Shown: positions 2,058-33,446 of the stretch, one piece after another
How the letters are laid out: every line of letters starts with the position of its first letter
How positions within the stretch are numbered: position 1 is the stretch's first letter
Assembly (NCBI RefSeq): GCF_036017915.1
Contig: NZ_CP107929.1
Coordinates: 4,220,001-4,284,000 of the forward strand
Direction: 5' to 3'
Source: Micromonospora sp. NBC_00421
GTDB taxonomy: Bacteria > Actinomycetota > Actinomycetes > Mycobacteriales > Micromonosporaceae
DNA: 64,000 nucleotides
The notes under the pieces: generated by a model
What the model was told of the DNA's origin: nothing
Database searches by the model: none
Seen by the model: only the letters and a program-made list of their open reading frames with translations
Program-made: the position numbers and the translations under genes

Positions 2058-2112
2058 TCGTTTGACCGGGTGAGGAGTGCGGCGGGCACCGCACGGGACC
2101 CGGGAGCTGCCG

Positions 2113-17006: not shown

Positions 17007-17126
17007 GTCTTCCTTCCGACAAGCTCGCTAGCTGCTTCGGCTCGACCACCGATAGGGATCACCCCTGCTCCGTAGGGTATTTTCACCCTTCGGGCCGCCC
17101 TGGGCGGCGACGGACGGAGGTCGAGC

Positions 17127-17360: not shown

Positions 17361-18071
17361 GTGGACGAGAAGACTCCCTCCCCAGCGACCCCGCAGACCG
17401 CGACCGACTCCGTGGCCACCGCCGACCCGGCGACCGGGGCACCCGACGCCGCCCCGTCGACCGACCAGGTGACCGACCGGTCTGCCGCCGACGGCCGGCG
17501 GGCCGGTTGGGACCGGTCGACCCGGCGGGCCGCGTTGTTCGCCGCCCTGGTCGCCGTCCCGGTGACGGTGGCCGTGGCGGCTTTCACCTTCGACAGGCTG
17601 TCCCCGGACACGCCGGCCGCCGCGCCGAGCCCGTCGCCGACCAGTCTCCGTCCCCAGTCCGTCACCCCGGTCGAGATGGCCGCCCCGGCGCTGGCCGAGC
17701 GACCCGGTGTGGTGTGCCGGGCGCTGGTGTCGCAGTTGCCGGCGACCGTCCGGGAGCTCGCCCAGCGCCCGGTGACCGCCGGCGCGGAGCAGAACGCCGC
17801 CTACGGCGACCCGGCGTTGACGGTCGCCTGCGGCGGCCCCGAGCCGACCGTGGACGCCACCGCCGACCTGTGGATCGTCAACCGGGTCTGCTGGTATGCC
17901 GCCGAGCGGTCGGACGCCACAGTGCTCACCACCCTCGACCGGGAGACCGCGGTCACGGTGACGGTGCCCCGGGCGTACGAGGGGCCGTTGCAGTGGATCA
18001 CCCCGATCTCCGACGCGGTGGTCGCCTCCGTGCCGTCCGGCGGGGACAGCCCGTCCGGCTGCCGGCGCTGA
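17361..18071 (+). CDS. DUF3515 membrane-anchored protein
   Basis: 236-aa actinobacterial protein. An acidic N-terminal tail of about 50 residues is followed by one membrane helix (RRAALFAALVAVPVTVAVAAF) and an extracytoplasmic domain with conserved cysteines: VVCRAL, VACGGP, RVCWYAA and the final SGCRR. This pattern is typical for DUF3515, found next to thiL and ddl in mycobacteria too (Rv2980). Function unknown. GTG 17361 begins right after the preceding stop codon, so translation is coupled. Here the conserved order breaks: ddl is about 24 kb further on. Confidence 0.85.
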   Translation: MDEKTPSPATPQTATDSVATADPATGAPDAAPSTDQVTDRSAADGRRAGWDRSTRRAALFAALVAVPVTVAVAAFTFDRLSPDTPAAAPSPSPTSLRPQSVTPVEMAAPALAERPGVVCRALVSQLPATVRELAQRPVTAGAEQNAAYGDPALTVACGGPEPTVDATADLWIVNRVCWYAAERSDATVLTTLDRETAVTVTVPRAYEGPLQWITPISDAVVASVPSGGDSPSGCRR

Positions 18072-18203
18072 GGTCCAGGCAGCCGGTCGGTGGTGGAGAC
18101 GACGGCGAAAATCGTTTGACGGCACCGATATTCTGATCCTCCGTACCTGCGGCTGACCGTGGGTGGCGAGGGGGCCCTGCCCCCTCACCAACCAGGAGCC
18201 GCA

Positions 18204-19409
18204 ATGCGCCGGGCACCCGCCCTCTCCTTCCTCCTCGTCACCGTCTTCCTGGACATGCTCGGGCTCGGCCTGGTCGTGCCGATCATGCCGGCCCTGCTGA
18301 GCTCCGTCACCGAGGATCCCGCCGCCGCTGTCCGCTGGTCCGGGCTGCTCGGCTCGGTCTACGGCCTGTTGCAGTTCGTCGTCTCGCCGCTGCTCGGCCG
18401 GCTCTCCGACAGGTACGGCCGGCGGCCGGTCCTGCTCGTCTCGCTCACCTGCCTCGGCGTCGACTGGCTGGCCCACGCGGTCTCTCCCAGCCCGTGGACG
18501 CTGCTGCTGTTCCACGCCCTCGCCGGTGCCTGCGCGGGCACGTACACAGTGGTCAACGCGTACCTCGCGGACGTCACGGCACCCGAGGCGCGGGCCCGTG
18601 CGTACGGGTCGGTGGGTGCCGCGTTCGGGCTCGGCTTCGTCGCCGGCCCGACCGTCGGCGGCCTGCTCGGCAGCGTCGACGTACGCCTGCCGTTCCTCGC
18701 CGCCGCCGCGCTGTCCTTCGCCAACGTCGGGTACGGCTGGTTCGTGCTGCCCGAGTCGCGGCCCGGTGACCGGACCACCCCGTTGACCCTGCGGACGGCG
18801 AACCCGGTCGCCGCCATCGTCGCCGTCCTGCGTCGACCGGTGCTCGGGCGGCTCGCGTACGCCCGGCTCTGCGCCGACGTCGCCCGGATGACTCACCAGT
18901 CGACCTGGACGTTCTTCCTCACCCACCAGTTCGCCTGGGGCACCGCGCGGGTCGGCACCGTGCTCGCGGCGGGGGCGCTCGCCGGGGCGCTCTTCCAGGC
19001 CAGGGCCGTCGGGCCGATCGTGCGCCGACTCGGGGACAAGCGGGCCGCGGTGGTCGGCGGCCTGCTCGGGGTGGCCGCGCTGGCGGGTACGGCGTTCGTG
19101 ACGGTGCCCTGGCTGCTCCACCTGCTCCAGGCGGTCGGCGTGCTCGCCGCGGTCGGTGGTGCCGCCGCACAGTCGTGGCTCTCAGGCATGGTCCGGCCCG
19201 ACGAGCAGGGCACGGTGCAGGGGGCGCTGACCGGGATCGGGGCCGCCGCCGAAACCCTGGTGCCGGTGGTGGCCGGCGCGGTGTTCGGGTGGTCGCTGGC
19301 GTACGCGTCACCGGGCCTGGTCCTCGTCGGTGCGGCCGTCTTCGCGGCCGGGTCGACAATTCTGCTGGCCACGACACCCGACCTGCGGCCACCGCCGACC
19401 GGGCGGTGA
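18204..19409 (+). CDS. MFS drug/metabolite exporter (TetA-like)
   Basis: Major facilitator of 401 aa with about 12 membrane helices. ATG 18204 has AGGAG 6 bases upstream; a longer frame lacks this. FLDMLGLGLVVPIMPALL in helix 1 and GRLSDRYGRRPVLL (motif A) are hallmarks of the TCR/TetA and multidrug proton antiporters, and GFVAGPTVGGLLGS is motif C, characteristic of exporters. Substrate unknown. It is the first gene of the accessory block and has no regulator next to it. Confidence 0.87.
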   Translation: MRRAPALSFLLVTVFLDMLGLGLVVPIMPALLSSVTEDPAAAVRWSGLLGSVYGLLQFVVSPLLGRLSDRYGRRPVLLVSLTCLGVDWLAHAVSPSPWTLLLFHALAGACAGTYTVVNAYLADVTAPEARARAYGSVGAAFGLGFVAGPTVGGLLGSVDVRLPFLAAAALSFANVGYGWFVLPESRPGDRTTPLTLRTANPVAAIVAVLRRPVLGRLAYARLCADVARMTHQSTWTFFLTHQFAWGTARVGTVLAAGALAGALFQARAVGPIVRRLGDKRAAVVGGLLGVAALAGTAFVTVPWLLHLLQAVGVLAAVGGAAAQSWLSGMVRPDEQGTVQGALTGIGAAAETLVPVVAGAVFGWSLAYASPGLVLVGAAVFAAGSTILLATTPDLRPPPTGR

Positions 19410-20305
19410 TTTCGGCACCCCGGTTCGGGTTTGCCGGGTCGTTCGGTCGGCAAGTCGGCGGCGGTCGTGCACATCCAATTCTGCATTTTGCCGTCCGCAG
19501 AAGTCCCCAGCCGCCGATCGGGTCCGCTTGCAGCGATTTCATCAAGCGGTCCTGATCGGCGAATCAGGACAGGTTCCAACGGGTGGGAATTGGGCAACTC
19601 CTGAAGCTGGGAACAGCAGGCGGCGGCACTCGCCGACTCGGCGGTCTCCGCTGGGGTATTCGCCATTTCCGAACGGGTCGTTCGACCGTCCTCGGCCGTG
19701 AAGCTCAACGAAAACGGTGTTCTCCGCTATCTACGGTCGATCGAGAGATTGCCCCACAAAGGCACGCAGGACGCCCGACCACCGGGGTCGGCAAGGGCAC
19801 TGGCTGCGGAAACGGCGGGTAGGCCCCGCCTCGGAGCCCTCGGGCCGGCCGACACCGGCCCGATCGACCGAAGGGATGGCCCGGCAATCGGCTGATCAGC
19901 GGGCCAGCATGGGCTGATCGGTCACACCTGCCCCACGTCAATTGCCCGACCCGAAGCGAATGGCCGATGCGCCCGGGCGACCGACCCCGATCGCCGACCA
20001 CATTCTGGACGACGCCGGCTACAGCCCTGTGAAGCGAACGTGAATGCCGTGTTTCGGTGCTCCCGGAAAAGAGCACGTCAGCGTGCCTGAGACCGACGTG
20101 ACCCGACTTCACGATCCCCGAAAAAGACGTTACCGGAAGTCGCCGTCACAGGTGCGGCGCTAACATCCCACCCCGCTTGCGTCAATGCTCCACATGCGAC
20201 AGGATCGGACGCTGAATCCGGAAGAATAATTGCTAGCCTTCGATGGCAACCCGGCAGCTCCTACTGAGCTGCGGCATTGTTCTTCTCCTCATCGGAGGTC
20301 ACCAC
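19410..20305. promoter_or_regulatory. 896-bp non-coding region before the exopolysaccharide cluster
   Basis: Less GC-rich than surrounding genes and free of plausible reading frames with codon bias. Such a long leader upstream of the CE18 deacetylase gene is the natural place for the cluster promoter and regulator sites. An AT-rich stretch GAAGAATAATTGCTAG (20221-20236) lies about 70 bases before the start. No known riboswitch could be identified by eye. Confidence 0.45.
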
Positions 20306-22441
20306 ATGGTCCCCACCGGACCTGCGCGCCCGCGCGCGAAACGAATCGCCCTCGCCGGGCTCACCGCGCTCGCGGTCGTCCTCGGCACCCAGACCGCCGG
20401 CCTCGCCCAGCCACGGACAGCGCCAAGCACGCTGGCCCAGCCGCCGAGCGCACCCGGCCTCGGTCAGGTCGCGAGCAAGAAGGAGGCCCGACCCGGGCCG
20501 CTGCCCACCCGGTCCGGCACCGTCAAGGTCGCCCCGTCCCCGTCGGGCGCCCGCAGTGGCGCGGTGGGCACCCAGGCGCTCAACGACAAGGTCGCGCTCC
20601 GCTCGCTGATCGTGGCCACCAACACTGCGGACTTCGGCGTGGCCACGCTCACCACCACCCTCGACCGGGTCGGCGCGAGCTACGACATCATCTACACCGC
20701 CAGCCAGACGCTCTCGGCGAGCACGCTCGTCGACTCCAACGGGGTCGGCAAGTACAACGCGATCCTGCTGACCAACAGCATGTTGATCTACGAGTCGGGC
20801 GGCAACTACCTGGAGGGCCTCAGCAGCACGGAGTGGACCACCCTCTGGGCCTACGAGCGCAACTTCCAGGTGCGGCAGGTCGCCCTCTACACCAGTTACG
20901 GCACCTGGCCGGAGGACTACTGCCTCAACTCCGCCGGGGAGACCGCGGTCGGCGACACCGCCCTGCCGCTCTCGCTGACCACCGCCGGCGCCGGGGTCTT
21001 CGACTACCTCAAGAGCACCGCCCAGATCCCGTTGACGCAGTCCTACGTCTACAAGACGTCGATCAAGAGCGGTTGCAACGCCGACGCCCTGCTCACCAAC
21101 GGCTCCAACGTGCTGGCCGTGCGCACCACGTCGACCGACGGTCGGGAGCGGATCGCCCTGACGTTCACCTCCAACCAGTACCTGCTCCACTCGGACCTGC
21201 TGGTCTACGGCCTGTTCCGGTGGGCGACCAAGGGCCTGCACTTCGGTGAGCAGAAGCACCACCTCAACGTCGACATCGACGACTGGTTCAGCTTCTCGGA
21301 CCACTACAAGGACGACGGCACCATCGAGTACACCCCCGGCTTGCAGATCAGCGGGCACGACGCGGTCAACCTCGACACGAAGCAGACCGCGCTGCGCACC
21401 GCGAACCCGCTGGCGTCCGGCCTCACCTTCAACATCCCCTACAACGGCGCCGAGATCGACCCGTTCGCCGGCAGCACGTGCAGCCCGAACGGCGACGCCA
21501 CCACGCTGACCGCCACCACGAAGTGCCTGAAGAACAACTTCCGGTGGATCAACCACACGCTCACCCACCCCGCGCTGAACACTACCGACTACGCCACCAC
21601 CCACGACGAGATCAGCTCGAACCAGACCGCTGGCACCTCGATCGGGTTGAACCCTCCGGCCGCCGTGCTGAAGACCCCCGAGTACTCCGGCCTCGGTGTC
21701 TACAACAACTCCAGCGGCGTGCTCACCGACTACGGCCTCGCCGCGTCCAACCCGGACCTGATCGACGCGGCCGGCGACCTCGGCATCAACACGCTTGTCG
21801 GCAACATGTCGTTCGCCAGCCACGTGCCGGCGCACTTCAACGCGTCCACCGCGCACCCGCTGGACCCGAGCATCGCGGTGGTGCCGTGCTGGCCGACCAA
21901 CATCGCCTACCACACCACCAACCAGGCCGAGGAGACGCACTTCTACAACGCCTTCTACGGTCCGAACGGCCACTTCCCCTACTGGCCCACCGACCGCACC
22001 TACTCGCAGATCCTGGACTACGAGTCGACGGTGGGGCTGCAGCACGTGACGTCCGGCTCGATCTACGCGCACACGTTCCACGTCGCCAACGTGCGTGACT
22101 ACGGCTCGGGCAACAGCCTGGTCACCGACTGGGCGGGTGCGGTGCTCACCAAGTACAGCTCCTACTACTCGGTGCCGCTGCTGAACTCGGCGTGGACCGA
22201 CATCGCCGCCTACACCAGGGCGCGCACGGCCCACTTCGCCGCGCTCGGCGCCGGGGCGTCGGCGGTCTACGACCGGACCACCGGTGAGATCACGGTGACC
22301 TCGCCGGCCGCCGGCTCGCTCCAACTCGGTGGCGTGACCACGACCACCGCGGGTGCCGGCACGTACGGCAGCGACGTCACCGTCCCGGTGACGCTTGTGG
22401 CGAACACCCCCGTGACGTTCACCGCCGCTCCTCGCCTGTAG
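20306..22441 (+). CDS. secreted exopolysaccharide deacetylase, CE18/Agd3-like
   Basis: Extracellular enzyme of 711 aa predicted to remove N-acetyl groups from a GalNAc-containing polymer. ATG 20306 is chosen for the GGAGG 7 bases upstream. A signal peptide (1-36) and Pro-rich linker precede an N-terminal alpha/beta domain (about 96-310; SLIVATNTADFG onward) that resembles the CBM87-bearing half of Agd3. The deacetylase half carries HHLNVDIDDWF (D325/D326) and WINHTLTHP (H417, H421), the Asp-His-His metal set, then TPEYSGLGVYNNSSG. A short beta domain ends the chain. In Aspergillus, Agd3 partially deacetylates galactosaminogalactan. It is first in a cluster with PelF-, PelG- and GH114-like genes. 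Family assignment is from memory. Confidence 0.75.
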   Translation: MVPTGPARPRAKRIALAGLTALAVVLGTQTAGLAQPRTAPSTLAQPPSAPGLGQVASKKEARPGPLPTRSGTVKVAPSPSGARSGAVGTQALNDKVALRSLIVATNTADFGVATLTTTLDRVGASYDIIYTASQTLSASTLVDSNGVGKYNAILLTNSMLIYESGGNYLEGLSSTEWTTLWAYERNFQVRQVALYTSYGTWPEDYCLNSAGETAVGDTALPLSLTTAGAGVFDYLKSTAQIPLTQSYVYKTSIKSGCNADALLTNGSNVLAVRTTSTDGRERIALTFTSNQYLLHSDLLVYGLFRWATKGLHFGEQKHHLNVDIDDWFSFSDHYKDDGTIEYTPGLQISGHDAVNLDTKQTALRTANPLASGLTFNIPYNGAEIDPFAGSTCSPNGDATTLTATTKCLKNNFRWINHTLTHPALNTTDYATTHDEISSNQTAGTSIGLNPPAAVLKTPEYSGLGVYNNSSGVLTDYGLAASNPDLIDAAGDLGINTLVGNMSFASHVPAHFNASTAHPLDPSIAVVPCWPTNIAYHTTNQAEETHFYNAFYGPNGHFPYWPTDRTYSQILDYESTVGLQHVTSGSIYAHTFHVANVRDYGSGNSLVTDWAGAVLTKYSSYYSVPLLNSAWTDIAAYTRARTAHFAALGAGASAVYDRTTGEITVTSPAAGSLQLGGVTTTTAGAGTYGSDVTVPVTLVANTPVTFTAAPRL

Positions 22442-22487
22442 GGCGGCACGACGAAATCAGCACAGCAAAGGTGAACGGGAGCAATTG

Positions 22488-24323
22488 GTGAGGATCGCGC
22501 TGGTCTCGGAGGGCACCTACCCGTACGCGATGGGTGGGGTGAGCATCTGGTGCGAGCAGCTCATCCGGGGAATGCCGGACTACCGGTGGGAGGTCGTGGC
22601 GCTCACCGTGGACGGCACCGAGGAGCCGGTGTTCGAGCGGCCGGCGAACCTCGACCGAGTGCACTCGATCCCGTTGTGGGGCGGTCGGCCGGCAGGCCGC
22701 CGCCCCCGGCGGGGCCGGGGAGTGCTGGTCCCGTCCGGCCGCCCCGGCGCGGAGTTCGTCGAGTCGTACGAGGTGTTCCTGCGGGCGCTGGTCACCCCGC
22801 TGGAGTCGACCCGCTCCCAGGCCGGCGCGGTGAACCGGAGCACCTTCCTGCTCGCCCTGCGCGGCATGTTCGAGTACGCCGCCGGCGGCGGTGACCTGAG
22901 CGCCGCCCTGCTCTCCAACGAGGCGCTGCGGATGATGCTGGAGGCCTGGCACACCCTGCGGGTCGAGGAGACCGGGCCGACGCCCACCGTCGCCGACGCG
23001 CTCGAGGCGGCCTGGCTCATCTCGCACATGCTCCGGCCGCTGAGCGCGCCGCCGGTCCGCGCCGACATCGTGCACTCGTCGATGAACGGACTGTCCACGC
23101 TCGTCGGGATGGCCGCCACCTGGACGTACGGCACCCCGCTGGTGCTCTCGGAACACGGCATCTACCTGCGCGAACGCTACATCTCCTATCTGCACGACGA
23201 CGCGCCGCACCCGGTCCGGGTGCTGGTGCTGAGCTTCTTCCGCTCGCTCGCCGGCGCGGCCTACCTGATCACCGGCGCGCTCGCGCCGCACTCGCAGTAC
23301 AACCGGCGCTGGCAGCTGCACAACGGCGCCGACCCCGACCGGATGTGGACGATGTACAACGGCGTCGACCCGGACGAGTTCCCGCCGGCGGCCGGCGAGC
23401 CGGACGAGCCGACCATCTCGTTCATGGGCCGGATCGACCCGCTCAAGGACCTGCACACCCTGATCCGGGCGTTCGCGGTGGTCCGCGCGGAGATCCCGAA
23501 CGCCCGGCTGCGCATCTTCGGTGGGACGCCGGCCGCCAACAAGGTCTACCACGAGAGCTGTCTGGCCCTGATCGACGAACTCGGGTTGACCGGGCAGGCC
23601 GTCCTGGAGGGCCGGGTGGGCAACGCCGTCGAGGCGTACCACGCGGGCAGCCTGGTGGCGCTCACCAGCATCTCCGAGGGCTTCCCCTACACGGTGGTGG
23701 AGGCGATGGCGTGCGGCCGGCCCACCGTGTGCACCAACGTGGGCGGGGTCGCCGAGGCGGTCGGCGACACCGGCTTCGTCGTCGCGCCACGGGACGTCGC
23801 CGCGATCGCCGACGCCTGCGTACGGATGCTCAACGACAGGGAGCTGCGGCTGCGGCTGGGAGCGGACGCCCGCGCGCGGGTGCTGGAGAAGTTCACCCTG
23901 CAACGCTCGTTGCAGGCGTACCGCGACATCTACGAGGGGCTCGCCGAGCCCCCGACCGCGTCCCCCGCCCCGAAGCAGCTGCGCGGTCAGGCCCAGGGTT
24001 TCGTCCGCGTCCCGAACCGCTCGGTCCGCCCCGGGGTGGCCGCCGTCGCCGCCCGCCCCGAGGCCGTGCCCGTCGCCGCCCGGCCTGAAAGCGTGCCCGT
24101 CGCGCCCCGGCCCGAAAGCGTCCCCGTCGTCGCCCGGGTGCCCCGCCAACGGGGGCCGGAACAGTACTCGTCCGCCGCGTACCCGAGCCGCCACGACCCG
24201 AACTCGTCCGGGCCCGAGCTGCCGCAGTCCGCCGGAACGCGCTCGGACGGCACGTATCCGGACGGCACGTGTGCGGGCGACGATCCAACTGTCGGCATCC
24301 TGCGCGCCACCGGCGGTCGTTGA
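22488..24323 (+). CDS. pelF: PelF-like GT4 glycosyltransferase (DUF3492)
   Basis: Cytoplasmic polymerase-type glycosyltransferase, 611 aa. GTG 22488 has GGGAG 6 bases upstream (TTG 22485 is possible). The N-terminus RIALVSEGTYPYAMGGVSIW is the DUF3492 signature of PelF, and a GT-B fold follows: SFMGRIDPLKDLHTLIRAF and the EX7E retaining motif at E397/E405. PelF assembles the Pel chain from UDP-sugars. About 130 extra C-terminal residues (from about 480) are disordered and contain a 9-residue unit repeated about three times (RPESVPVAP-type), absent from Pseudomonas PelF as far as I recall. Stop and next start overlap as TGATG. Confidence 0.87.
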   Translation: MRIALVSEGTYPYAMGGVSIWCEQLIRGMPDYRWEVVALTVDGTEEPVFERPANLDRVHSIPLWGGRPAGRRPRRGRGVLVPSGRPGAEFVESYEVFLRALVTPLESTRSQAGAVNRSTFLLALRGMFEYAAGGGDLSAALLSNEALRMMLEAWHTLRVEETGPTPTVADALEAAWLISHMLRPLSAPPVRADIVHSSMNGLSTLVGMAATWTYGTPLVLSEHGIYLRERYISYLHDDAPHPVRVLVLSFFRSLAGAAYLITGALAPHSQYNRRWQLHNGADPDRMWTMYNGVDPDEFPPAAGEPDEPTISFMGRIDPLKDLHTLIRAFAVVRAEIPNARLRIFGGTPAANKVYHESCLALIDELGLTGQAVLEGRVGNAVEAYHAGSLVALTSISEGFPYTVVEAMACGRPTVCTNVGGVAEAVGDTGFVVAPRDVAAIADACVRMLNDRELRLRLGADARARVLEKFTLQRSLQAYRDIYEGLAEPPTASPAPKQLRGQAQGFVRVPNRSVRPGVAAVAARPEAVPVAARPESVPVAPRPESVPVVARVPRQRGPEQYSSAAYPSRHDPNSSGPELPQSAGTRSDGTYPDGTCAGDDPTVGILRATGGR

Positions 24324-25849
24324 TGACCGGCACCAACGACCCGGACGTCACCGACCCCTTGTTCCGACCCTTCGCCACGATGACCACCGAGGCGGGGACC
24401 GACGACCGGGCGGACAGTCCCGAACGCACGATCCTGCTGCCCCGGATCTCCACCGATCCGGTCGACGACCTGGTCGAGCGGGTCCGCCCCCAGCTGACCC
24501 GGGCGGTGGACGCGCTCCAGGTCGCCGCCGCCCTGGAGGCCGACGGGCACACCGACCGGGCCGCCCAGGTCGAGTACGGCTACCGCGACGTCTTCGTCCT
24601 CGCCTCGGAGGTGTTCCGGCGGTTGGGGCCCAACCCGCCGGTGGTGGACGGGCCGCCCGCCGCGTCCGCGCCCGGCCCCGACCGGCGGGGCGACCTGCGG
24701 ACGATCTCGCACGGCCTGCTGTACGTGCTGCCCAGCGCCGCCTTCCCGGCCGTACTGGCGGTCGTGGGTCGACCTGGCCTGGTGCTCGGCATGATCCTCG
24801 CCGGCACGGTGGGGTGGATCTGGTCGGGGATGGCCGCCCACGCGGCGTTCCGCCTGCTCGGCCTGGGCCGGGTCCGGTCGGCCAGCCGGGTGCTGCGGAT
24901 CGCCGCGCTGACCGCGCCCCTGCTCGGCGCGGTGGCCGGTGCCGCGCTGCTGCCGTACGGCGGCCTGCCGCTCGCCGTCATGATGGTCTTCCAACTGACC
25001 TACCAGTTGGCGAGCACGCTGCTGCTCTTCCACAGTCGTGAGTGGTGGCTGGCGGCGGCCATGCTCCCGGCGGTGCTCTCCGGCGCCGTCTTCCTGCTCG
25101 ACGGGGGCGCGACGGCCCGGCTCTGGGCGGTCGGCGGGGCGGTCCTCGGCGTGCTGGCCAGCCTCGCCGCCGGGCTCTGGGCCACCCGGGAGGCCGTCCG
25201 GGCCGAGGAGCCGGTGGCCCGGGAACCGCTGTGGCCGCCCGCGCCCCGGCTGCTCGGCGTCGCCGGCTACGGGTTCTGCTCGGCGGTGCTGCTCTTCCAC
25301 GCGCAGGCGCCCTACCTGCTGGGCCGGTTGGACATCGCGGCGGCGGCGGTGCCGCTGATCCTGTCCATGGGGTTCGTCGAGTGGCGGACCAGCCGGTTCT
25401 GGGCGAGCGGGGTCGCGCTGTCCCGACGGGCCCGCGTCCCGCGCGGCTTCGTCGCCGGGATCTGGCGCACCATCGGCCGGGAGGTCGCCGCCTGTCTGGC
25501 GGTGCCGGCGGTGCTCGGGGCGGTGCTGATCGTCGTGCTCGCCCAGCTGGGCCGGCTCTCGGCCGCCGGGGTGGTGATGACCGCTGCGCACGTGGCCCTC
25601 GCCGGGGCGTACTACCTGGCCTTCCTGCTGGTCGGTAGGGGCCGGTACGGCTGGCTCTGCCTGGCCATGACGGTGGTGGTCGTGCTGCACGTCGGCCTCG
25701 GCGGGCTGCTCGGCGTCGCCCCGCTGCTCGGCCAGGGCGACGACCCGGTCGCCGACACCTCGCTCTACCTGGGCAGCGTGCTGCTGCTCCAGGCGTTGTT
25801 CGCGCTCGGTCTGTTTCCGGTGATCGGGCAGGTTCGGCACTACCGATAG
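24323..25849 (+). CDS. PelG-like 12-TM polysaccharide transporter with soluble N-domain
   Basis: Integral membrane protein of 508 aa. ATG 24323 overlaps the glycosyltransferase stop by one base. A soluble N-terminal region of about 120 residues (helical; LTRAVDALQVAAALEADGHT) precedes about 12 hydrophobic segments spread evenly to the C-terminus, as in MATE/Wzx-type flippases and PelG. PelG partners PelF to move the polymer across the inner membrane; fungal gt4c fuses both functions. The soluble N-domain is not typical for PelG and might replace the missing PelD/PelE interaction surface, but that is speculative. Sequence identity to PelG was not measured. Confidence 0.65.
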   Translation: MTGTNDPDVTDPLFRPFATMTTEAGTDDRADSPERTILLPRISTDPVDDLVERVRPQLTRAVDALQVAAALEADGHTDRAAQVEYGYRDVFVLASEVFRRLGPNPPVVDGPPAASAPGPDRRGDLRTISHGLLYVLPSAAFPAVLAVVGRPGLVLGMILAGTVGWIWSGMAAHAAFRLLGLGRVRSASRVLRIAALTAPLLGAVAGAALLPYGGLPLAVMMVFQLTYQLASTLLLFHSREWWLAAAMLPAVLSGAVFLLDGGATARLWAVGGAVLGVLASLAAGLWATREAVRAEEPVAREPLWPPAPRLLGVAGYGFCSAVLLFHAQAPYLLGRLDIAAAAVPLILSMGFVEWRTSRFWASGVALSRRARVPRGFVAGIWRTIGREVAACLAVPAVLGAVLIVVLAQLGRLSAAGVVMTAAHVALAGAYYLAFLLVGRGRYGWLCLAMTVVVVLHVGLGGLLGVAPLLGQGDDPVADTSLYLGSVLLLQALFALGLFPVIGQVRHYR

Positions 25850-25888
25850 TCCACCGATAGTCCACGCGAGACCTATGGGGAGGTCCGG

Positions 25889-26692
25889 TTGCACGCGGTG
25901 ATTCTTGCCGGCGGCAAAGGGGTGCGGCTGAAGCCGTACACCACGACGCTGCCGAAGCCCCTGATGCCGATCGGGGACAGCCACTCGATCCTCCAGATCG
26001 TGCTCGACCAGCTCGCCTCGCGCGGGTTCACCTCGGTGACCCTGGCGATCAACCACCTCGGCCCGCTGATCCGGGCGTTCGTCGGGGACGGCAACCGGTG
26101 GGGCCTCGCCATCGACTACGTCGAGGAGGACCGACCACTGTCCACGGTCGGCCCGCTGTTCGCCCTGAAGGACCGGCTGCCCGACGAGTTCCTGGTGATG
26201 AACGGCGACGTCCTCACCGACCTGGACTACGGCGACCTGCTGCGGGACCATCAGCTCTCCGGGGCGGGGCTGACCCTGGCGACCTCCGAACGGGTGCACC
26301 GGATCGACTTCGGCGTGCTCGACGTGGACGACGGGCGGGTCGTCGGGTTCCGGGAGAAGCCGGCGCTGCACTACCCGGTCAGCATGGGTGTCTACGGGAT
26401 GTCCCGCCGGACGCTCGACCCGTATCCGGCCGGGTTGGCCCTCGGCTTCGACCAGTTGGTGCTGGACCTGCTGGCGGGCGGCGACCAGCCACGGACGTAC
26501 CCGTTCGAGGGGTTCTGGCTGGACATCGGCCGACCGGAGGACTACGACGAGGCGAACCGCTCGTTCCCCCAGCTCAAGCCGATCCTGCTGCCCACCCGGT
26601 CGAGGCCGGTGGAGGTGACCGTCGGTGAGGCGGCCGAGCCGTTGGCCGTCGCCGACCTGCCGGGCGTGGTGCGGGCCGGGGAGCTGACGTGA
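25889..26692 (+). CDS. sugar-phosphate nucleotidyltransferase
   Basis: Makes an NDP-sugar from a sugar 1-phosphate; 267 aa. TTG 25889 follows GGGGAGG by 5 bases. The N-terminus [17 protein letters not shown] and [10 protein letters not shown] form the nucleotide-binding signature, and [14 protein letters not shown] the metal-binding GD motif. FDFGVL-like and [18 protein letters not shown] segments are as in glucose-1-phosphate thymidylyl- or mannose-1-phosphate guanylyltransferases. The exact sugar is unclear. It overlaps the next gene as GTGA, fifth-from-last step of the same operon. Confidence 0.85.
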
Positions 26693-27585
26693 CGCGGGTA
26701 CTGCTGTTCGGGGCGTCCGGATTCATCGGCGGGCACGCCCGCGACGCCCTGGCCGCGGATCCCCGGGTCACCGAGGTGATCTGCCCGGGGCGGGCGACGT
26801 ACGACCTGCTCGACGGCGAGCCGGCCGCGCTCGCGGTGCTGCTGCGCGAGGTCGCCCCGGACGCGGTGGTCAACTGTGTGGGCGCCCTCACCGGCTCCGC
26901 CGCCCAACTGGTCAACGCGAACACGGTGGTCGCGGCGAAGCTGCTTGAGGCGACCGCCGCGGCGGCACCGCAGGCCCGGCTGGTCCGGCTCGGCTCGGCC
27001 GGCGAGTACGGGCCGCTGCCGCAGCGCGTCCCGGTCACCGAGGAGGCACCGGCCCGACCGGTCAGCGCGTACGGCGTGAGCCACCTGGCCGGGACCCGGC
27101 TGTTCCAACTCGCCGGGGAGGCCGGCGAGGTCGACGCTGTCTCGCTGCGGGTGTTCAACCCGATCGGTCCCGGCATGTCGCAGGAGAACCTGCTCGGTCG
27201 GGCGGCGGCGCGGATCCGGGCCGCGCTGGCCGACGGGGCGACCGAGATCACCCTGGGACCGCTGTCGGCGTACCGGGACTTCGTCGACGTGCGGGATCTC
27301 GCCGCGCTGATCACGGTGGCGGCGCTCGCGCCCGCGCTGCGGCACCGGGTCGTCAACGCGGGCAGCGGCCGGGCGGTCAGCGCCCGGCAGGCCGTCGCGC
27401 TGCTGGCCGACGCGGCGGGCTACGACGGCGCGATCCGGGAGGCCGGCGTCGGGCCGCAGCGCTCGCAGGCGGTCGACTGGATCCAGGCCGACATCGGCCG
27501 GGCCGCCCACGAGCTGGGGTGGTCGCCGGTGCGCGACCTGGCGACGTCGATCAAGGACATCTGGGCCGCCGGCGACGCACGCTGA
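26689..27585 (+). CDS. NAD-dependent epimerase/dehydratase, atypical YxxxH
   Basis: Extended SDR enzyme of 298 aa acting on a nucleotide sugar. The Rossmann glycine motif GASGFIGGH is at the N-terminus, [10 protein letters not shown] follows, and [11 protein letters not shown] is the Ser/Glu-Tyr segment. The catalytic pair is unusual: Tyr128 is followed at +4 by His132 (AYGVSHLAG) instead of Lys. A true epimerase would normally need that Lys, so activity may be altered or limited. The C-terminal half contains [11 protein letters not shown] as usual. Coupled to the nucleotidyltransferase by a 4-base overlap and 55 bases before the dehydrogenase. Confidence 0.82.
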
Positions 27586-27640
27586 GCCGGCGGACCGCTC
27601 CCCCATCACGACACACCCGTAACACGAGAGGACACCGCAG

Positions 27641-29020
27641 ATGAGTACGAAGATCGGGGTCGTGGGCCTGGGCTACGTGGGGCTCACCCTCACCGCCGCC
27701 CTCGCCGACAAGGGCTTCACGGTGTACGGCGCGGACGTCTCGCCGGCGGTGCTGGACGCGCTCTCGCACGGCCGGCCGCACATCTTCGAGCCCGGCATCG
27801 AGGACGTCTTCGCCGCCCACCTCGGCAAGAGCATCCACGTCGCCGCCGACCTGCCGAAGGACACCGTCGACGTGGCGGTGATCAGCGTGTCGACGCCGGT
27901 GGACAACATGACCCACCGCCCCAACCTGGCGAACCTGGCCGCCGCCGCCCGGGTGGTGGCCGCCAGTTGCCGCCCGGACACCCTGGTGGTGGTGCGCAGC
28001 ACGGTGCCGGTCGGCACCAGCCGCCGGGTGGTGCTGCCGGAGCTCCAGGCCGCCTGGGGTGAGCGGGTGAAGCTGGTGATGGCCCCGGAGCGGACCATCC
28101 AGGGCCAGGCGCTGCGGGAACTCGTCGAGCTGCCGCAGGTGGTAGGCGGCCTGGACGACGAGAGCCTCGCCGCCGGGGTCGAGTTCTTCGACGGGTTGGC
28201 ACGCACCGTCGTCCCGGTCTCCGGGCTGGAGACCGCCGAGTTGGTGAAGCTGTCGAACAACTGCCACACCGACCTGATCTACGCGTTCGGCAACGAGATC
28301 GCGTTGATCGCCGAGCGGCACGGCCTCGACCCGCTGGAGGTGATCCGGGCGACCAACGTCGACTACCCGCGCCCGGATCTGGCCAAGCCCGGGTACGTGG
28401 GCGGCGGCTGCCTCTCGAAGGACCCGTACATCATGATCGACAGTGCGGGTGACAGGCGGCCGTTCCTCGTCGGCAAGGCCCGCCAGCTCAACGAGTACCT
28501 GCCGATCCACGTCGGTGAGACCGTGGTCCGGATGCTCGTCGAGGCGCGCGGGCGCAGCCTCGGCGCCCGGCTGGCGGTGCTCGGCTGGGCGTACAAGGGC
28601 TGGCCGGCGACCGACGACATGCGGGGCACCCCGATCGAGCCGATGATGCGGGTCTTCTCCGCCGCCGGTGTGACAGTCCTCGGCCACGATCCGATGGTCA
28701 CCGACGACGTGATCCGCCAGTACGGCGGCGAACCGGTCAGCCTGGACAAGGCGTTCACCGAGGCGGACGCCGTGCTGATCATCAACGACCATCCGGACTA
28801 CCGGGCGTTGCGGGTACCGGAGGTGCTCGGCGCGACGCCCCCGGCGTTCGTCTACGACTCGTGGCGGGTGCTCGACGGCGACGCGGTGATGGCCGCCGGG
28901 GTGCGCTACGCCGGACTCGGCTACCTGCCGCCCGCACCGACCGGTCCGGGTGACGACGGCGGTACGGCCGGCGCTGCCGCCGGCGCCGGCGCGGCGACCG
29001 CCGGGGCGGTGTCCGCATGA
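27641..29020 (+). CDS. nucleotide-sugar dehydrogenase (UDP-ManNAc/UDP-GlcNAc dehydrogenase type)
   Basis: Four-electron NAD dehydrogenase of 459 aa that oxidises the C6 hydroxyl of a UDP-sugar to a uronic acid. The N-terminal Rossmann motif GVVGLGYVGLTLTAAL, VISVSTPVDN, MAPERTIQGQALREL and the catalytic Cys257 in GGGCLSKDP are intact. WAYKGWPATDDMRGTP marks the C-terminal domain. PER-x-Q/PG-type sequence points to the WecC/TviB side of the family rather than UDP-glucose dehydrogenase. Its presence suggests a uronic acid in the polymer, unlike standard Pel. It shares 4 bases (ATGA) with the next gene. Confidence 0.88.
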   Translation: MSTKIGVVGLGYVGLTLTAALADKGFTVYGADVSPAVLDALSHGRPHIFEPGIEDVFAAHLGKSIHVAADLPKDTVDVAVISVSTPVDNMTHRPNLANLAAAARVVAASCRPDTLVVVRSTVPVGTSRRVVLPELQAAWGERVKLVMAPERTIQGQALRELVELPQVVGGLDDESLAAGVEFFDGLARTVVPVSGLETAELVKLSNNCHTDLIYAFGNEIALIAERHGLDPLEVIRATNVDYPRPDLAKPGYVGGGCLSKDPYIMIDSAGDRRPFLVGKARQLNEYLPIHVGETVVRMLVEARGRSLGARLAVLGWAYKGWPATDDMRGTPIEPMMRVFSAAGVTVLGHDPMVTDDVIRQYGGEPVSLDKAFTEADAVLIINDHPDYRALRVPEVLGATPPAFVYDSWRVLDGDAVMAAGVRYAGLGYLPPAPTGPGDDGGTAGAAAGAGAATAGAVSA

Positions 29021-29982
29021 GGGCACTGCTGCTCGGCGGGGCCGGCTTCATCGGCCTGCACCTGGCCCGCCGTCTCGTCGCCGACGGTCACCAGGTGACT
29101 ATCGTGGACGACTTCTCCCGGGGCCGCGACGACGCCGACCTCGACCGGCTGCGCGCCGATCCGGCCGTACAGGTGATCTCCGGCGACCTGACCAGCCCGG
29201 ACACCTGGGCCGCGCTGCCGACCGGCTGGGACCAGATCTACCTGCTCGCCGCCGTCGTCGGGGTGCGCAACGTGGAGCAGGATCCGGCCCGGGTGATCCG
29301 GGTCAACACCCTCTCCGCGCTGCACCTGCTCGACTGGGTGGCCCCGGGTGAGCGGGTCTTCTTCGCCTCCACCAGCGAGGTCTACGCCGGGGGCGTCACC
29401 GCCGGGGTGGTGCCGGTGCCGACGGCCGAGACGGTGCCGACGATGATCTCCGACATCGCGGCCCCCCGCTTCGCGTACGCGGCCAGCAAGCTGCTCGGCG
29501 AGGCCGCCTTCCTGCACACCGCCCGCGCCAAGGGCTTCGAGACCGTGGTGGGCCGATTCCACAACGTGTACGGCCCCCGGATGGGCGCCGACCACGTCAT
29601 CCCGGAGATGTCCCTGCGTGCCCTGCGCGGGGCCGACCCGTTCCCGGTCCCCGGCGCCGACCAGTACCGGGCGTTCTGCCACGTGGACGACGCGGTCGAG
29701 GCGATGCTGCGGCTGATGGGGGCACCTGCCGCCGCCGGGCAGATCGTGCACATCGGCAACGACCGGGAGGAGACCAACATCGGCGACCTGGCCAAGCTGG
29801 TCCTGCGGGTGGCCGGGGTGAGCCCCGCCATCGTGCCCCGGAGCGCGCCACCGGGATCGGTCGCCCGCCGCTGCCCGGACCTGTCCCGGCTGCGCGAGCT
29901 GACCGGCTACGAGCCGGGCGTCAGCCTGGAAGAGGGGGTACGCAGCACGTTCGCCTGGTACCAGGAGCACGGATGGACGTGA
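29017..29982 (+). CDS. NAD-dependent epimerase (UDP-GlcNAc/UDP-glucose 4-epimerase type)
   Basis: Extended SDR enzyme of 321 aa. GGAGFIGLHLARRLV binds NAD, FFASTSEVYAGG carries the catalytic Ser/Thr region, and Tyr154-x3-Lys158 (YAASK) is intact. GRFHNVYGPRM and YRAFCHVDDAVEAM complete the family pattern. In Pel and galactosaminogalactan clusters a UDP-GlcNAc 4-epimerase (PelX, Uge3) supplies UDP-GalNAc; this gene is the best candidate for that role here. The start overlaps the dehydrogenase, and the stop lies 10 bases inside the following GH114-type gene. Confidence 0.86.
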   Translation: MRALLLGGAGFIGLHLARRLVADGHQVTIVDDFSRGRDDADLDRLRADPAVQVISGDLTSPDTWAALPTGWDQIYLLAAVVGVRNVEQDPARVIRVNTLSALHLLDWVAPGERVFFASTSEVYAGGVTAGVVPVPTAETVPTMISDIAAPRFAYAASKLLGEAAFLHTARAKGFETVVGRFHNVYGPRMGADHVIPEMSLRALRGADPFPVPGADQYRAFCHVDDAVEAMLRLMGAPAAAGQIVHIGNDREETNIGDLAKLVLRVAGVSPAIVPRSAPPGSVARRCPDLSRLRELTGYEPGVSLEEGVRSTFAWYQEHGWT

Positions 29983-30674
29983 CGAACCGACGCCCGATCT
30001 GCTTCTACTACGGCGACGGCCGGCTGCCCGAACTCACCAGGTACGTGCGGGTGGTCCTGCAACCGGACTTCTACCGGCCGGCCGAGCTGCGCTACCTCGC
30101 CGAGCAGGACGTGCAGACGCTCGGCTACCTGTCGCTGTCGGAGGACCAGGGGCCACCCGCGCCCTGGCAGCGGCAGGAACGCAACCCGGACTGGGGTGGC
30201 GCGTTCGTCCACGTCGACCATCCGCTCTGGGTGGCGCACGTGGTGAAGCAGGCGAAACAGGCGATCGCGCAGGGCTTCGCCGGGCTCTTCCTGGACACGC
30301 TCAACGTCGAGCTGACCTTCCCGGAGGACGTGCCGCACCTGCTCACCCTGGTCGCCGCGGTCCGGGAGGAGGCCCAGCCGGCGTACCTGCTGGCCAACCG
30401 GGGGTTCGGCATGCTGCCCCGGTTGGCCGAGATCGTCGACGGGATCGTCTTCGAGTCGTTCTCGGCCCGGTGGACCGACCAGGGTTACGCCGCCTGGCCG
30501 CCCGACGTGCTGGAGTTCCACGCCCAGATCGCCGAGCAGTTGCTCCAGTTGGAGCTGGACCTCTACAGCCTCGACTACGCCGACAGCCAGGGGCTCACCG
30601 ATTTCGCCGAGCGCCGGGCCCGCCAGTTCGGGCTCCAGTCCTCGGTCAGCGACCGCGCCCTGTCCCGTACCTGA
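29973..30674 (+). CDS. GH114/PelA-hydrolase-like protein lacking a signal peptide
   Basis: 233-aa TIM-barrel hydrolase related to the endo-alpha-1,4-galactosaminidase domain of PelA and fungal Ega3. Visible landmarks: ICFYYGDGRLPELTRY, VVLQPDFYRPAELRYLA, TLGYLSLSED, GFAGLFLDTLN (candidate catalytic D108), LLANRGFGMLP and VFESFSARW (candidate E161). ATG 29973 has GGAG 5 bases upstream and lies within the end of the preceding gene. No secretion signal or membrane segment is present, although the known relatives act outside the membrane. It may trim or check chains in the cytoplasm, or the true start may differ. Last gene of the cluster. Confidence 0.75.
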   Translation: MDVTNRRPICFYYGDGRLPELTRYVRVVLQPDFYRPAELRYLAEQDVQTLGYLSLSEDQGPPAPWQRQERNPDWGGAFVHVDHPLWVAHVVKQAKQAIAQGFAGLFLDTLNVELTFPEDVPHLLTLVAAVREEAQPAYLLANRGFGMLPRLAEIVDGIVFESFSARWTDQGYAAWPPDVLEFHAQIAEQLLQLELDLYSLDYADSQGLTDFAERRARQFGLQSSVSDRALSRT

Positions 30675-30872
30675 CCACCCCGTTCGGGACGTCCGCCCGG
30701 ACCGGTCCGGTGCCCGGTCCGGCTTGGGCACCCGCCCCTGCCGGGCCGGGACCGGATCGTGCGTCGGCACCACGCGCGACCGGCTCCCGCCCGACGGGGG
30801 CGGGGTTCCCCGCAGCGGTCGGGCGGCAGACGGCGTCCGGCCGGCGGGCAGGCAGCGGGTCGGGGCGGCGGG

Positions 30873-31499
30873 TCAGGCCGTTGCGGTGTCGAAGGCGGGG
30901 GCGAGCGGCAGCAACGCGGCCCGGACGAGGTCCGGCAGTGGCCCGGACGGCACCACGAACCCGGCCATCGACGGCACCTCGCTCGTGCCGTCCAGCCACT
31001 GCCGCAGCGCCACCCTGGTCGCCGCGCCGACGGCGGCGGAGAGCACCCGGGCGGTCAGAAGTTCGATGCCTGGGCAGCGGGCGGTGACCGCCTCGAAGAG
31101 CGGTTCGTCGATCGTGGTGACCGCGTCGACGTAGCAGGCGCGCAGCGCGGGGCTGGCGGCGATCATCAGCAGCGCGGCGGGGGGATGGTCGCCGGGGTCG
31201 GTGTACAGGCCCACGACGGCGTCGATGACCGCGTCACCGAGGCCGACCCCGGCCGGCCGGGCGAGCACGGCCCCCGCGATCCCGGCCGCGCGGTCCGCAG
31301 CGACCCCGGCGACGATCGCCTGCTCCCGGCTCGGGAAGTAGTTGTTGTAGGTCCGGGGCGACACGCCCGCCGCCTGGGCGATCTCCTCGACGCGGACGTT
31401 GTCCGGCCCGCGTTCCAGCGCGAGGCGCAGGGCCGCCGACTGGAGCGCCTCCCGGGTGGCCCGCTTCTTCCGTTCCCGCAGCGTCGATGGACTGCTCAC
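30873..31499 (-). CDS. TetR family regulator
   Basis: 208-aa repressor-type regulator. GTG 31499 begins SSPSTLRERKKRATREAL. The helix-turn-helix is VRVEEIAQAAGVSPRTYNNYFPSREQ (about residues 30-55), with NNYF replacing the usual YHHF; the ligand domain is not diagnostic. It is divergent from the TIM-barrel gene at 31608, with a 28-bp palindrome between them that is a likely operator for both genes. Confidence 0.9.
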   Translation of the reverse strand: MSSPSTLRERKKRATREALQSAALRLALERGPDNVRVEEIAQAAGVSPRTYNNYFPSREQAIVAGVAADRAAGIAGAVLARPAGVGLGDAVIDAVVGLYTDPGDHPPAALLMIAASPALRACYVDAVTTIDEPLFEAVTARCPGIELLTARVLSAAVGAATRVALRQWLDGTSEVPSMAGFVVPSGPLPDLVRAALLPLAPAFDTATA

Positions 31500-31529
31500 G
31501 GTGCCACTTTCGCACACTCGGTACGTGCA

Positions 31530-31557
31530 CGCAAACTTGCGTGCACGCAAGTTTGTG
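31530..31557. promoter_or_regulatory. TetR operator-like palindrome
   Basis: A 28-bp near-perfect palindrome (one mismatched pair) centred on GTGCAC, with half-sites GCAAACTTGC and GCAAGTTTG. It lies between the divergent TetR gene and the gene at 31608, the classic arrangement for autoregulation. Confidence 0.7.
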
Positions 31558-31607
31558 CTACGGTTCCTCCGAACCGTCTTGGAGCACCACGATCGAAAGG
31601 GGCCGAC

Positions 31608-32660
31608 ATGCGCGCCAAGGGCATGGCCTACGACACCGGCTTCGTCACCGACGGCGTCAGTTCGGTACCGCACTGGGACCCCGAGGTGGTCCGCCGGGAA
31701 CTGGCCATCATTCGGGACGACCTGCACTGCACCGCCGTACACCTGGTCGGCGGCGATCCCGGGCGGCTGGAGTCGGCCGCCCGCACCGCCGCCGAACTCG
31801 GCCTGGAGGTCTGGTTCTCGCCGTATCCACTGGAGCTGGAACCCGACCTGATCCGCGCGCTGTTCCTCGACTGCGCCGAGCGGGCCGAGCGGCTCCGCGC
31901 GACGGGGGCCGAGGTCGTGTTCGTCACCGGCGCCGAGCTGAGCATCATGAACCGTGGCTTCATCGCCGGGGAGCGTCTCGCGGACCGCCTCCACCACCTG
32001 TTTACCGACCCGAACGGCCGCGCCGAGCGCATCGCCGAGGTCCGCGTCCGCCTCGACAAGTTCCTGCGCACCACAGTGGCGGCGGTCCGCGAACGCTTCC
32101 ACGGCAAGGTCACCTACGCCGCGATCCCGTTCGAGGGCGTCGACTGGGACCTGTTCGACGTGGTGACCGTCGAACTCATCCGGTCCGCCGAGGTCGCCGA
32201 CCAGTTCCGCGACGGCGTACGCCGGCTGGTCGACCAGCCCAAGCCGGTCGCCGTCACCGGCTTCGGCACCGCGACCTGGCGCGGCGCGGGCGAAGTCGCA
32301 CCACGCAGCATGGAGATCATCGAGTACGACGCGACCAGCGGGAAGCCCCGGCGACTGGACGGAGTGTACGAGCGCGACGAGGACGGTCAGGCCGCATACC
32401 TGCGCGAACTGCTCGACATCTTCGACAGCGAGGGCGTCGACAGCGCCTTCGTCCACCTCTTCGCGCTACCCAGCCTGCCGCACCGGCCGGACGGCGATCC
32501 CCGGGACGACCTCGACCTCGCCAGCCCCGGAATCGTCAAGGTGCTCGACGGCCGCACCGGCGAGACGTATCCCGGCCTTCCCTGGGAGCCGAAGGCCGCG
32601 TTCGCCGCCGTCGCCGAGCACTACTCCCGCCCACCCGCGTCGGCCGGTCGGCGCGGCTGA
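31608..32660 (+). CDS. conserved TIM-barrel-like hypothetical protein (TetR-linked)
   Basis: 350-aa soluble protein starting at ATG 31608 (AAGGGG 5-6 bases upstream). MAYDTGFVTDGVSSVPHWDP, LHCTAVHLVGGDPGRLESAA, LGLEVWFSPYPLEL and EVVFVTGAELSIMNRGFI suggest a beta/alpha barrel with carboxylates at strand ends, like a glycosidase or sugar-modifying enzyme. Related actinomycete proteins are sometimes named abortive infection protein; I cannot support that name from sequence. It is controlled by the divergent TetR gene, and an antibiotic- or sugar-response role is possible. Function unknown. Confidence 0.7.
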   Translation: MRAKGMAYDTGFVTDGVSSVPHWDPEVVRRELAIIRDDLHCTAVHLVGGDPGRLESAARTAAELGLEVWFSPYPLELEPDLIRALFLDCAERAERLRATGAEVVFVTGAELSIMNRGFIAGERLADRLHHLFTDPNGRAERIAEVRVRLDKFLRTTVAAVRERFHGKVTYAAIPFEGVDWDLFDVVTVELIRSAEVADQFRDGVRRLVDQPKPVAVTGFGTATWRGAGEVAPRSMEIIEYDATSGKPRRLDGVYERDEDGQAAYLRELLDIFDSEGVDSAFVHLFALPSLPHRPDGDPRDDLDLASPGIVKVLDGRTGETYPGLPWEPKAAFAAVAEHYSRPPASAGRRG

Positions 32661-32715
32661 ACGGACGACGCCCGGCCGGAGGGGGCAAGTGTCCGGGCCA
32701 CTGGGCACTGCCCCC

Positions 32716-33306
32716 TCAGCGCAGGCGCAGCCCCGCGACGAGGAGCCCGACCATGCGGCGTGCGTCGTAGTAGGGGGCGCGGCCGGCGCAGAGGTTGCCG
32801 ACGGCGAACAGGAACTCCTGGGCGTTCTGGCCGGGGTGGATCTCGCCGGCTTCGGCGGCGGCGTCGAGCAGCTGGGCGCACGCGGGGACGAGCCGGTCGA
32901 GGAAGTACCCGTGCAGCGTCTCGAAGGCGGCGTCGTCGGACTGTAGCGCCCCGGCCAGGCCGTGCTTGGTGACCAGGAAGTCGACGAACAGGTCGATCCA
33001 GGTGGCCAGGGCGGCGTGCGGCGTACCGCTGGTGGCGAGCAGGGCCGGCGCGGCCTCGGCGCACGCCTGCACCTGGTGCCGGTAGACGGCGACGATGAGG
33101 TCCGCCCGGGTCGGGAAGTGGCGGTAGATCGTACCGACGCCGACGCCGGCCCGTGCGGCGATGTCGCGGACGGGCGCGTCGACGCCGACAGCGAGGAAGG
33201 CCGCGGCGGCGGCCTCCAGCAGCGTCGCCTCGTTACGCCGGGCGTCGGCCCGCTTGCGTGGGGCCGGCGACGCCGCTCCCCCGTCGCGGCCGGTCATCGC
33301 GCCCAC
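32716..33306 (-). CDS. TetR family regulator
   Basis: 196-aa regulator. GTG 33306 is preferred because AAGGAGG lies 8 bases upstream. A short basic lead is followed by the helix-turn-helix VRDIAARAGVGVGTIYRHFPTRADLIVAVY. The C-terminal half (LFVDFLVTKHGLAGALQSDD) is the SbtR/TetR_C-like domain often paired with oxidoreductases. It is divergent from an aldo/keto reductase, with a perfect 19-bp palindrome in between. Confidence 0.9.
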   Translation of the reverse strand: MGAMTGRDGGAASPAPRKRADARRNEATLLEAAAAAFLAVGVDAPVRDIAARAGVGVGTIYRHFPTRADLIVAVYRHQVQACAEAAPALLATSGTPHAALATWIDLFVDFLVTKHGLAGALQSDDAAFETLHGYFLDRLVPACAQLLDAAAEAGEIHPGQNAQEFLFAVGNLCAGRAPYYDARRMVGLLVAGLRLR

Positions 33307-33371: not shown

Positions 33372-33446
33372 TGAGCCATGATGCCAGAACCGGCCGGCCG
33401 ACCGCCAGCGCGGGGACGGCCGCCGTCATCCCCAGGAGGAACAGCC

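Follow-up and report, generated by a model that had tools for sequence, protein, structure and literature searches.

Galactosamine polymer loci and the Micromonospora cluster

Enzymes of the CE18, PelF, PelA-hydrolase and GH114 families act on polymers of N-acetylgalactosamine (GalNAc) and galactosamine (GalN). The Pel and galactosaminogalactan (GAG) pathways both need a uridine diphosphate N-acetylglucosamine (UDP-GlcNAc) 4-epimerase, and the GAG cluster of Aspergillus contains gt4c, agd3, ega3, uge3 and sph3. This study concerns a related cluster of eight tightly packed plus-strand genes with a strong coding signal at positions 20306-30674 of the window, a 64,000-nucleotide stretch of the complete 7.23 Mb genome of Micromonospora sp. 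NBC_00421 (contig NZ_CP107929.1). The cluster is read here as a putative operon for a Pel/GAG-like exopolysaccharide with an intracellular PelA-hydrolase relative, a model to which we assign a probability of about 0.68 as a whole.

Bacterial operons in which agd3 is accompanied by a glycosyltransferase, a membrane protein and often a GH114 protein were reported in 2020 (PMC7229062), with Agd3 homologues in 45 bacterial species and Actinobacteria and Deinococcus-Thermus among the hosts (Bamford et al., 2020; PMC7229062). The present operon may be among the 30 of that paper. Its main text mentions neither Micromonospora nor Actinoplanes, and its pertinent section mentions no leaderless PelA-hydrolase relative, no fusion to a short-chain dehydrogenase/reductase (SDR) and no gene order like the present one. 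Gram-positive pelDEA(DA)FG loci have also been described (PMC7112168, PMC7112194), Bifidobacteria being named for the actinobacterial type in a figure legend. Furthermore, PelA-DA of Bacillus cereus acts on alpha-1,4-GalNAc oligomers (PMC13254593), and the families GH114, GH135, GH166 and GH191 have been compared (PMC12054363). A partial literature search (Micromonospora with Agd3, PelF with Micromonospora, Kibdelosporangium with GH114) returned no description of this operon. The operon type is already known: the cluster belongs with the bacterial agd3 and Pel-like operons, of which it represents a widely conserved variant.

Like the Gram-positive Pel locus (Whitfield et al., 2020; PMC7112168), the cluster combines a PelF-family synthase, a deacetylase and a membrane protein of the multidrug/oligosaccharidyl-lipid/polysaccharide (MOP) type, with a PelA-hydrolase gene nearby in many loci. 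It differs from that locus in its CE18-type deacetylase and in a membrane protein outside the PelG sequence family. GAF and GGDEF domains, and hence a PelD-type receptor, are absent from its eight proteins (the rest of the genome lay outside this search), and nothing PelE-like was recognised among them, with no PelE profile used. An Agd3-type deacetylase is shared with the Aspergillus GAG cluster, as is GH114 in most related bacterial operons. In contrast to that cluster, the present one has neither GH114 nor spherulin-4 (no PF12138 match among the eight proteins), its glycosyltransferase and membrane protein are separate genes, and its hydrolase-like protein is GH166-like and leaderless. A preliminary description of this DNA, made from the letters alone, had seen no PelD, no cyclic di-GMP (c-di-GMP) receptor and no sph3-like gene, in agreement with the absence of GAF, GGDEF and spherulin-4.

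Core enzymes and proposed function

The genes are lettered A (deacetylase), F (PelF-like), G (membrane protein), N (nucleotidyltransferase), S1 (SDR), D (UDP-sugar dehydrogenase), S2 (SDR) and H (hydrolase-like), and X denotes an extra GH114 gene of relatives. From the gene content, the protein families, the conserved residues and the recurrent gene order we infer the following scheme. N, S1, D and S2 would supply nucleotide sugars, from which F would polymerise an alpha-1,4-linked GalNAc-type chain in the cytosol. G would carry this chain across the membrane in PelG's stead, and A, outside the cell, would take off part of the acetyl groups, making the polymer cationic and adhesive. H, as an intracellular endo-galactosaminidase, would probably cut stalled or wrong-side chains or limit chain length at the F-G machine, and D and S2 would probably add a uronic acid or its decarboxylated pentose. 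A partly deacetylated GalNAc-type polymer, with a possible role in biofilm or hyphal adhesion, had been proposed in the preliminary description. As to the polymer, that proposal is supported in part, by the presence together of a PelF-type synthase, an Agd3-type deacetylase and a PelA-type hydrolase, and is the best available.

A matches the Pfam families for CBM87 and the Agd3 deacetylase domain (PF25116, 49.2 bits; PF25115, 41.5 bits; cut-offs 27.6) and the Agd3 structure 6nwz (9e-11), which bears out the earlier view of this 711-aa protein as CE18/Agd3-like. Two sets of related loci, numbered with the prefix L, were used to follow its residues. The first comprises 40 loci fetched from 67 genomes with G (L058 is cut by the contig end before H); the second comprises 67 loci that an H alignment picked up in named genome contigs. 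H being the bait, counts from the second set are silent on H-less systems, and several of its loci are cut by contig ends. The CM1 Asp-Asp pair (D346, D347) and the HxxxH motif (H438, H442) of A are kept in 40/40 and 59/59 relatives, and H613, a conserved candidate for the CM4 histidine, in 40/40 and 58/59. The N-terminus carries a hydrophobic segment (mean hydropathy 2.21). F matches DUF3492 (PF11997) at 155 bits and the PelF equivalog NF038011 at 158.4 bits against a cut-off of 100, as would the PelF of a Pel locus; all five GT4 positions inspected are kept in 40/40 relatives. Its earlier assignment as a DUF3492-GT4, PelF-like enzyme thus stands.

The same genes recur together. At an identity of at least 35 %, tblastn recovered F, N and S1 in all 40 loci of the first set, G in 39, A in 38, D and S2 in 36 and H in 35. 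Nine profiles applied at 50 bits to the 67 loci of the second set gave S2 in 63, N and D in 61, G and S1 in 60, A in 59, F in 58 and X in 51, with A, F and G together in 58 loci and all nine families in 44. In 42 of the 67, mostly from Micromonosporaceae and Streptosporangiaceae, the genes lie on one strand in the order A-F-G-N-S1-X-D-S2-H. That this order is seen again in further genera and families makes the cluster more than a chance assembly. The residues inspected in A, F, D, S2 and H are nearly always kept.

The membrane protein G

The AlphaFold2 model of G (pLDDT 88.1, pTM 0.77) has a small N-terminal domain followed by 12 long helices, and in Foldseek and VIA it matches WzxE, MATE and MurJ. 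Structures of MATE, Wzx and MurJ come first for the model of a canonical PelG and for that of G alike. As modelled, G is a protein of the MATE/Wzx/MurJ (MOP) fold that is PelG-like by fold and position only. The 12 helices described earlier are borne out by the model, and a sequence match to PelG is not: the 508-aa protein has no PelG match, which was one of two sequence findings that the preliminary description had named as refuting it.

At an E-value of 0.1, G has no Pfam or NCBIfam match, PF16933 (PelG) included. PF16933 is likewise absent among the families matched by 51 G relatives and by 7 further proteins (the G alignment used 51 of 108 listed homologues), and PelG was found in 0/41 of the genomes examined, Micromonospora sp. 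NBC_00421 among them. Comparisons by hhalign of the G family with one and with five PelG sequences were negative, a weak test with so few PelG, and that of a two-sequence bridge alignment with PelG was also negative. The identification of G as PelG by sequence was rejected, all Pfam and hhalign comparisons being negative. The closest named relative of G, its own entry aside, is that of Micromonospora rifamycinica (92 % identical). A distant relative in locus L097 gave a PelG match below threshold (20.6 bits against a cut-off of 29). Since L097 is the only link, descent of G from PelG is suggested rather than established. L097 (9304-15586) holds a PelF-like protein with HEAT repeats near this membrane protein, which matches the G family and, below cut-off, PelG.

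Nucleotide-sugar enzymes and the probable identity of the polymer

N, S1, D and S2 fall in ordinary nucleotide-sugar families, in line with the sugar-nucleotide synthesis enzymes named earlier. N matches PF00483 (115 bits), with mannose-1-phosphate guanylyltransferase structures at the top of the list. S1 matches PF01370 (119.5 bits) and the GDP-6-deoxy-D-mannose reductase 6x3b (3.6e-19). At the position of the SDR catalytic lysine, S1 has histidine in 34/40 loci of the first set; in the second (n=59) there are 44 His, 4 Arg and 11 Lys, and the scored Kibdelosporangium loci keep the lysine. D scores 289.8 bits with TIGR03026, over the cut-off, and keeps its catalytic cysteine in 36/36 and 61/61 relatives. 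The nearest solved structure to S2 is UDP-glucuronic acid decarboxylase 1 (4lk3, 5.4e-36). Within S2, the Ser and Glu of the T-S-E pattern are kept in 63/63 and its Thr in 62/63, Tyr and Lys in 63/63, and an Arg aligned with that of UDP-glucuronic acid decarboxylase 1 in 60/63; we take these residues to be marks of a decarboxylase.

These enzymes bear on a different aminosugar or uronic-acid polymer, for which F would use another sugar nucleotide, e.g., one from D and S2, and the processing enzymes would have shifted specificity too. The four nucleotide-sugar genes that accompany the core, the resemblance of S2 to UDP-glucuronate decarboxylase and the lack of an assigned 4-epimerase among the eight proteins all agree with such a product. 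However, L131 has A-F-G-H with no N, S1, D or S2 found in the stretch covered, L141 is without D and S2, and the enzymes that A, H and X resemble all act on GalNAc/GalN polymers. This alternative is therefore considered improbable, and a GalNAc-type chain is preferred.

The hydrolase-like protein H

H matches the hydrolase domain of Pseudomonas aeruginosa PelA (GH166; 5tcb, 2.7e-17) and keeps both catalytic acids; in the named loci E161 is present in 67/67 and D108 in 66/67, the remaining one being a gap. Its Pfam GH114 score of 17.2 bits is below the cut-off of 27. Of the earlier GH114/PelA-type assignment, the PelA part is retained and the GH114 part is not. Unlike the PelA domain, H stands alone and is leaderless, and some relatives have it joined to an SDR. 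PelA hydrolases have been published as periplasmic (PMC9894940), and the B. cereus PelA-type hydrolase has a signal sequence (PMC7112168), whereas H has none.

The absence of a leader was examined in 45 in-frame residues before an anchor, with a hydropathy threshold of 1.6; 2 of the 67 H loci lacked the anchor. For X, 35 of 51 proteins were scored, and for A all 59. No leader-like segment was found for H in any of 65 testable loci, two of which are fusions, the highest value being 1.40, and a leader-like N-terminus was found in 33/35 X proteins. S2 and H share a single open frame in L077 and L088, and profiles revealed the fusion also in L128 (Virgisporangium ochraceum) and L136 (a Hamadaea metagenome-assembled genome, MAG), the fusions representing three genomes and one clade. 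In the tree of H, L128, L136 and L088 are grouped at 0.97; a single S2-H fusion event is therefore likely. H probably works in the cytosol because it has no leader-like segment and because of the S2-H fusion, and the view of H as a secreted Ega3/PelA-like enzyme is abandoned on the same two grounds.

Export of H without a classical leader, with trimming of the polymer outside like other PelA-type hydrolases, would agree with the location of known relatives, which act outside the cytoplasm (PMC7112168, PMC9894940), and with the lack in this genome of X, which would be able to do outside work. It is quite unlikely given the 0/65 result and the single open frame that joins H to S2, an NAD-binding SDR, in three genomes. 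Furthermore, most relatives carry both H and X, so that H is no stand-in for X. The fusion, and the adjoining positions of S2 and H in most loci, would also suit an H that is no polymer hydrolase and acts with S2 on a cytosolic sugar-nucleotide or lipid-linked intermediate. We hold this to be unlikely, since H stays with A-F-G where S2 is not found (L131, L141), follows S1 in L147 and L155, resembles the PelA hydrolase domain in sequence and has both of its catalytic acids.

The favoured role, that of an intracellular enzyme acting on the polymer, can be taken further. To our knowledge, no intracellular editing step of this kind is known in any synthase-dependent exopolysaccharide system. It is tentatively proposed that the loci form a distinct nine-gene system in which an intracellular GH166-type endo-galactosaminidase would edit or clear the polymer as it forms, on the cytosolic face of an exporter with the MOP fold. 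Such a system, with its quality-control or chain-length step, might span several actinomycete families, Thermaceae and, rearranged, a Myxococcales MAG; this extension is a possibility to be held loosely. It would be a case of a polymer-degrading enzyme seemingly working inside the polymer-making cell, and of all parts of the cluster the GH166 relative, probably intracellular, most merits experimental study. Loci that naturally lack X or H, carry a fused S2-H gene or have only A-F-G-H open the role of each part to tests in harmless soil strains.

Several observations weigh against the proposed operon function. The polymer is so far a prediction from the genes. No UDP-GlcNAc 4-epimerase was assigned among the eight proteins, S1 and S2 being SDRs without a clear epimerase assignment and the search being confined to these eight rather than the rest of the genome, and the histidine in place of the catalytic lysine of S1 in most loci makes one sugar-supply step uncertain. 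No counterpart of the CM3 arginine of Agd3 was located in A: between the HxxxH motif and H613, no arginine position is shared by at least 40/41 sequences. In L079, H has Asn for the catalytic Asp (1/35 of the first set). H went undetected in L090 and L091 as well as in L078 and L080, two loci where all of the other eight families, X among them, are present; it is thus not indispensable. In addition, the leader test is a hydropathy threshold and no trained predictor; it missed 2/35 X proteins and was passed by 38/59 and failed by 21/59 A proteins, some of these cut by the locus edge.

The absent GH114 gene

X belongs to the GH114 family (the L056 copy scores 131.3 bits), and most relatives have it placed between S1 and D. 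It is present in 32/40 related loci of the first set, the exceptions being L052-L055, L058 (contig end), L087, L090 and L091, and was not found in L111, L131, L132, L147, L155 and some further loci. The cluster of the window has no GH114 gene. Among the named records, M. wenchangensis, M. antibiotica and M. matsumotoense (L102-L104), which neighbour the window, likewise lack X, and M. okii (L105), which branches next in the H tree, has it; the simplest reading of this pattern is a single loss of X in the window's clade. The nine overlapping or closely spaced plus-strand genes described earlier are tightly packed as stated, and eight in number. The missing ninth gene joins the family of the membrane protein and the location of the hydrolase as points on which the preliminary description is corrected.

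Elsewhere in the window, a gene at 2077-3042 encodes a GH114 protein whose N-terminal region includes a hydrophobic stretch; at 177.2 bits it gives the genome's single PF03537 match. As the missing ninth gene it is unsupported as a dedicated partner, because it matched none of seven X proteins (BLASTP, 1e-5) and is near-universal in the genus while G is patchy; relatives were found in 110/121 genus genomes, two of these only near an E-value of 1e-3. In L090 and L091, genes similar to it are close to the cluster.

Distribution and layout of the locus

G was matched in 67/300 genomes drawn from the family, in 16/44 genera, with 12 of these 67 from the same genus. In a separate sample, G was present in 3/37 same-genus genomes (3/61 in all); the cluster is thus patchy in the genus. 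H was found in 3/246 genomes drawn from the class, and PelG in 13/396 genomes from the phylum, 7 of them over cut-off. The actinomycete hosts of the 67 loci are Micromonosporaceae, Nonomuraea and other Streptosporangiaceae, Kibdelosporangium and Actinosynnema; the other hosts are Meiothermus granaticius, a Thermaceae MAG, two Chloroflexi MAGs and a Myxococcales MAG. Profiles did not find A, F or G in either Chloroflexi stretch, and in the Myxococcales stretch the cluster genes are scattered over both strands. This distribution suggests that many filamentous actinomycetes make galactosamine-rich Pel/GAG-like polymers, of which no study was found in the literature searched.

The features of the locus are listed in Table 1. 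Starts and stops overlap by 1 base at F/G, 4 at N/S1, 4 at D/S2 and 10 at S2/H, and with four junctions overlapping by 1-10 bases the cluster from A to H is likely transcribed as one unit. A sigma-70 scan of the locus found no promoter, terminator-like sites occurred at about the shuffled rate, and an Rfam scan of 17000-33000 gave zero matches.

Table 1. Genes of the Micromonospora sp. NBC_00421 cluster and the gap at the position of X, in window coordinates.
Feature	Position	Strand	Length and evidence
A: Agd3/CE18-like deacetylase with CBM87-like domain, predicted secreted	20306..22441	+	711 aa; PF25116, PF25115, 6nwz
F: PelF-family GT4 glycosyltransferase with DUF3492	22485..24323	+	612 aa; PF11997, NF038011
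G: predicted MOP-fold membrane protein with N-terminal helical domain, in place of PelG	24323..25849	+	508 aa; AlphaFold2 model
N: sugar-1-phosphate nucleotidyltransferase	25889..26692	+	267 aa; PF00483
S1: SDR-family sugar-nucleotide enzyme, His replacing the usual catalytic Lys	26689..27585	+	298 aa; PF01370
55-base gap at the site of X (GH114) in most related operons	27586..27640	.	gap sequence, X survey
D: UDP-sugar 6-dehydrogenase	27641..29020	+	459 aa; TIGR03026
S2: SDR, nearest solved structures UDP-glucuronate decarboxylases	29017..29982	+	321 aa; 4lk3
H: PelA hydrolase domain (GH166) relative without leader, probably cytosolic	29973..30674	+	233 aa; 5tcb

Flanks are common to L052-L055. 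Upstream, 18159-19409 encodes a major facilitator superfamily (MFS) efflux protein like the Tet(A)/Tet(B)/Tet(C) family (251.5 bits, below the cut-off of 475), which adjoins the cluster in L052-L055 too. Downstream of H, an open plus-strand frame of about 350 aa (31602-32660) has no Pfam match, and a frame 85-92 % similar lies beside the cluster in L053-L055. When an empty insertion site was sought, the flanking MFS gene was found in 4/15 genomes and the downstream gene at 33378 in 14/15, with no shared arrangement.

A second, Kibdelosporangium-type cluster has two consecutive Agd3-type genes in L156, L157, L159, L161 and L164. L154 and L159 come from a record titled Rhodococcus rhodnii NRRL B-16535, whose two clusters carry F genes almost the same as their counterparts in Kibdelosporangium aridum; the record is either a mislabelled assembly or reflects a recent transfer, and Rhodococcus was not counted as a host. 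In another lineage of the phylum, L093 (4993-14139) brings together a GAF-GGDEF protein, a PelF-like protein, a true PelG and an Agd3-type deacetylase, with a spherulin-4 gene on the opposite strand. This type appears to be a Pel/GAG hybrid with a candidate c-di-GMP receptor, and L094 resembles L093 by BLAST and by its PelG match.

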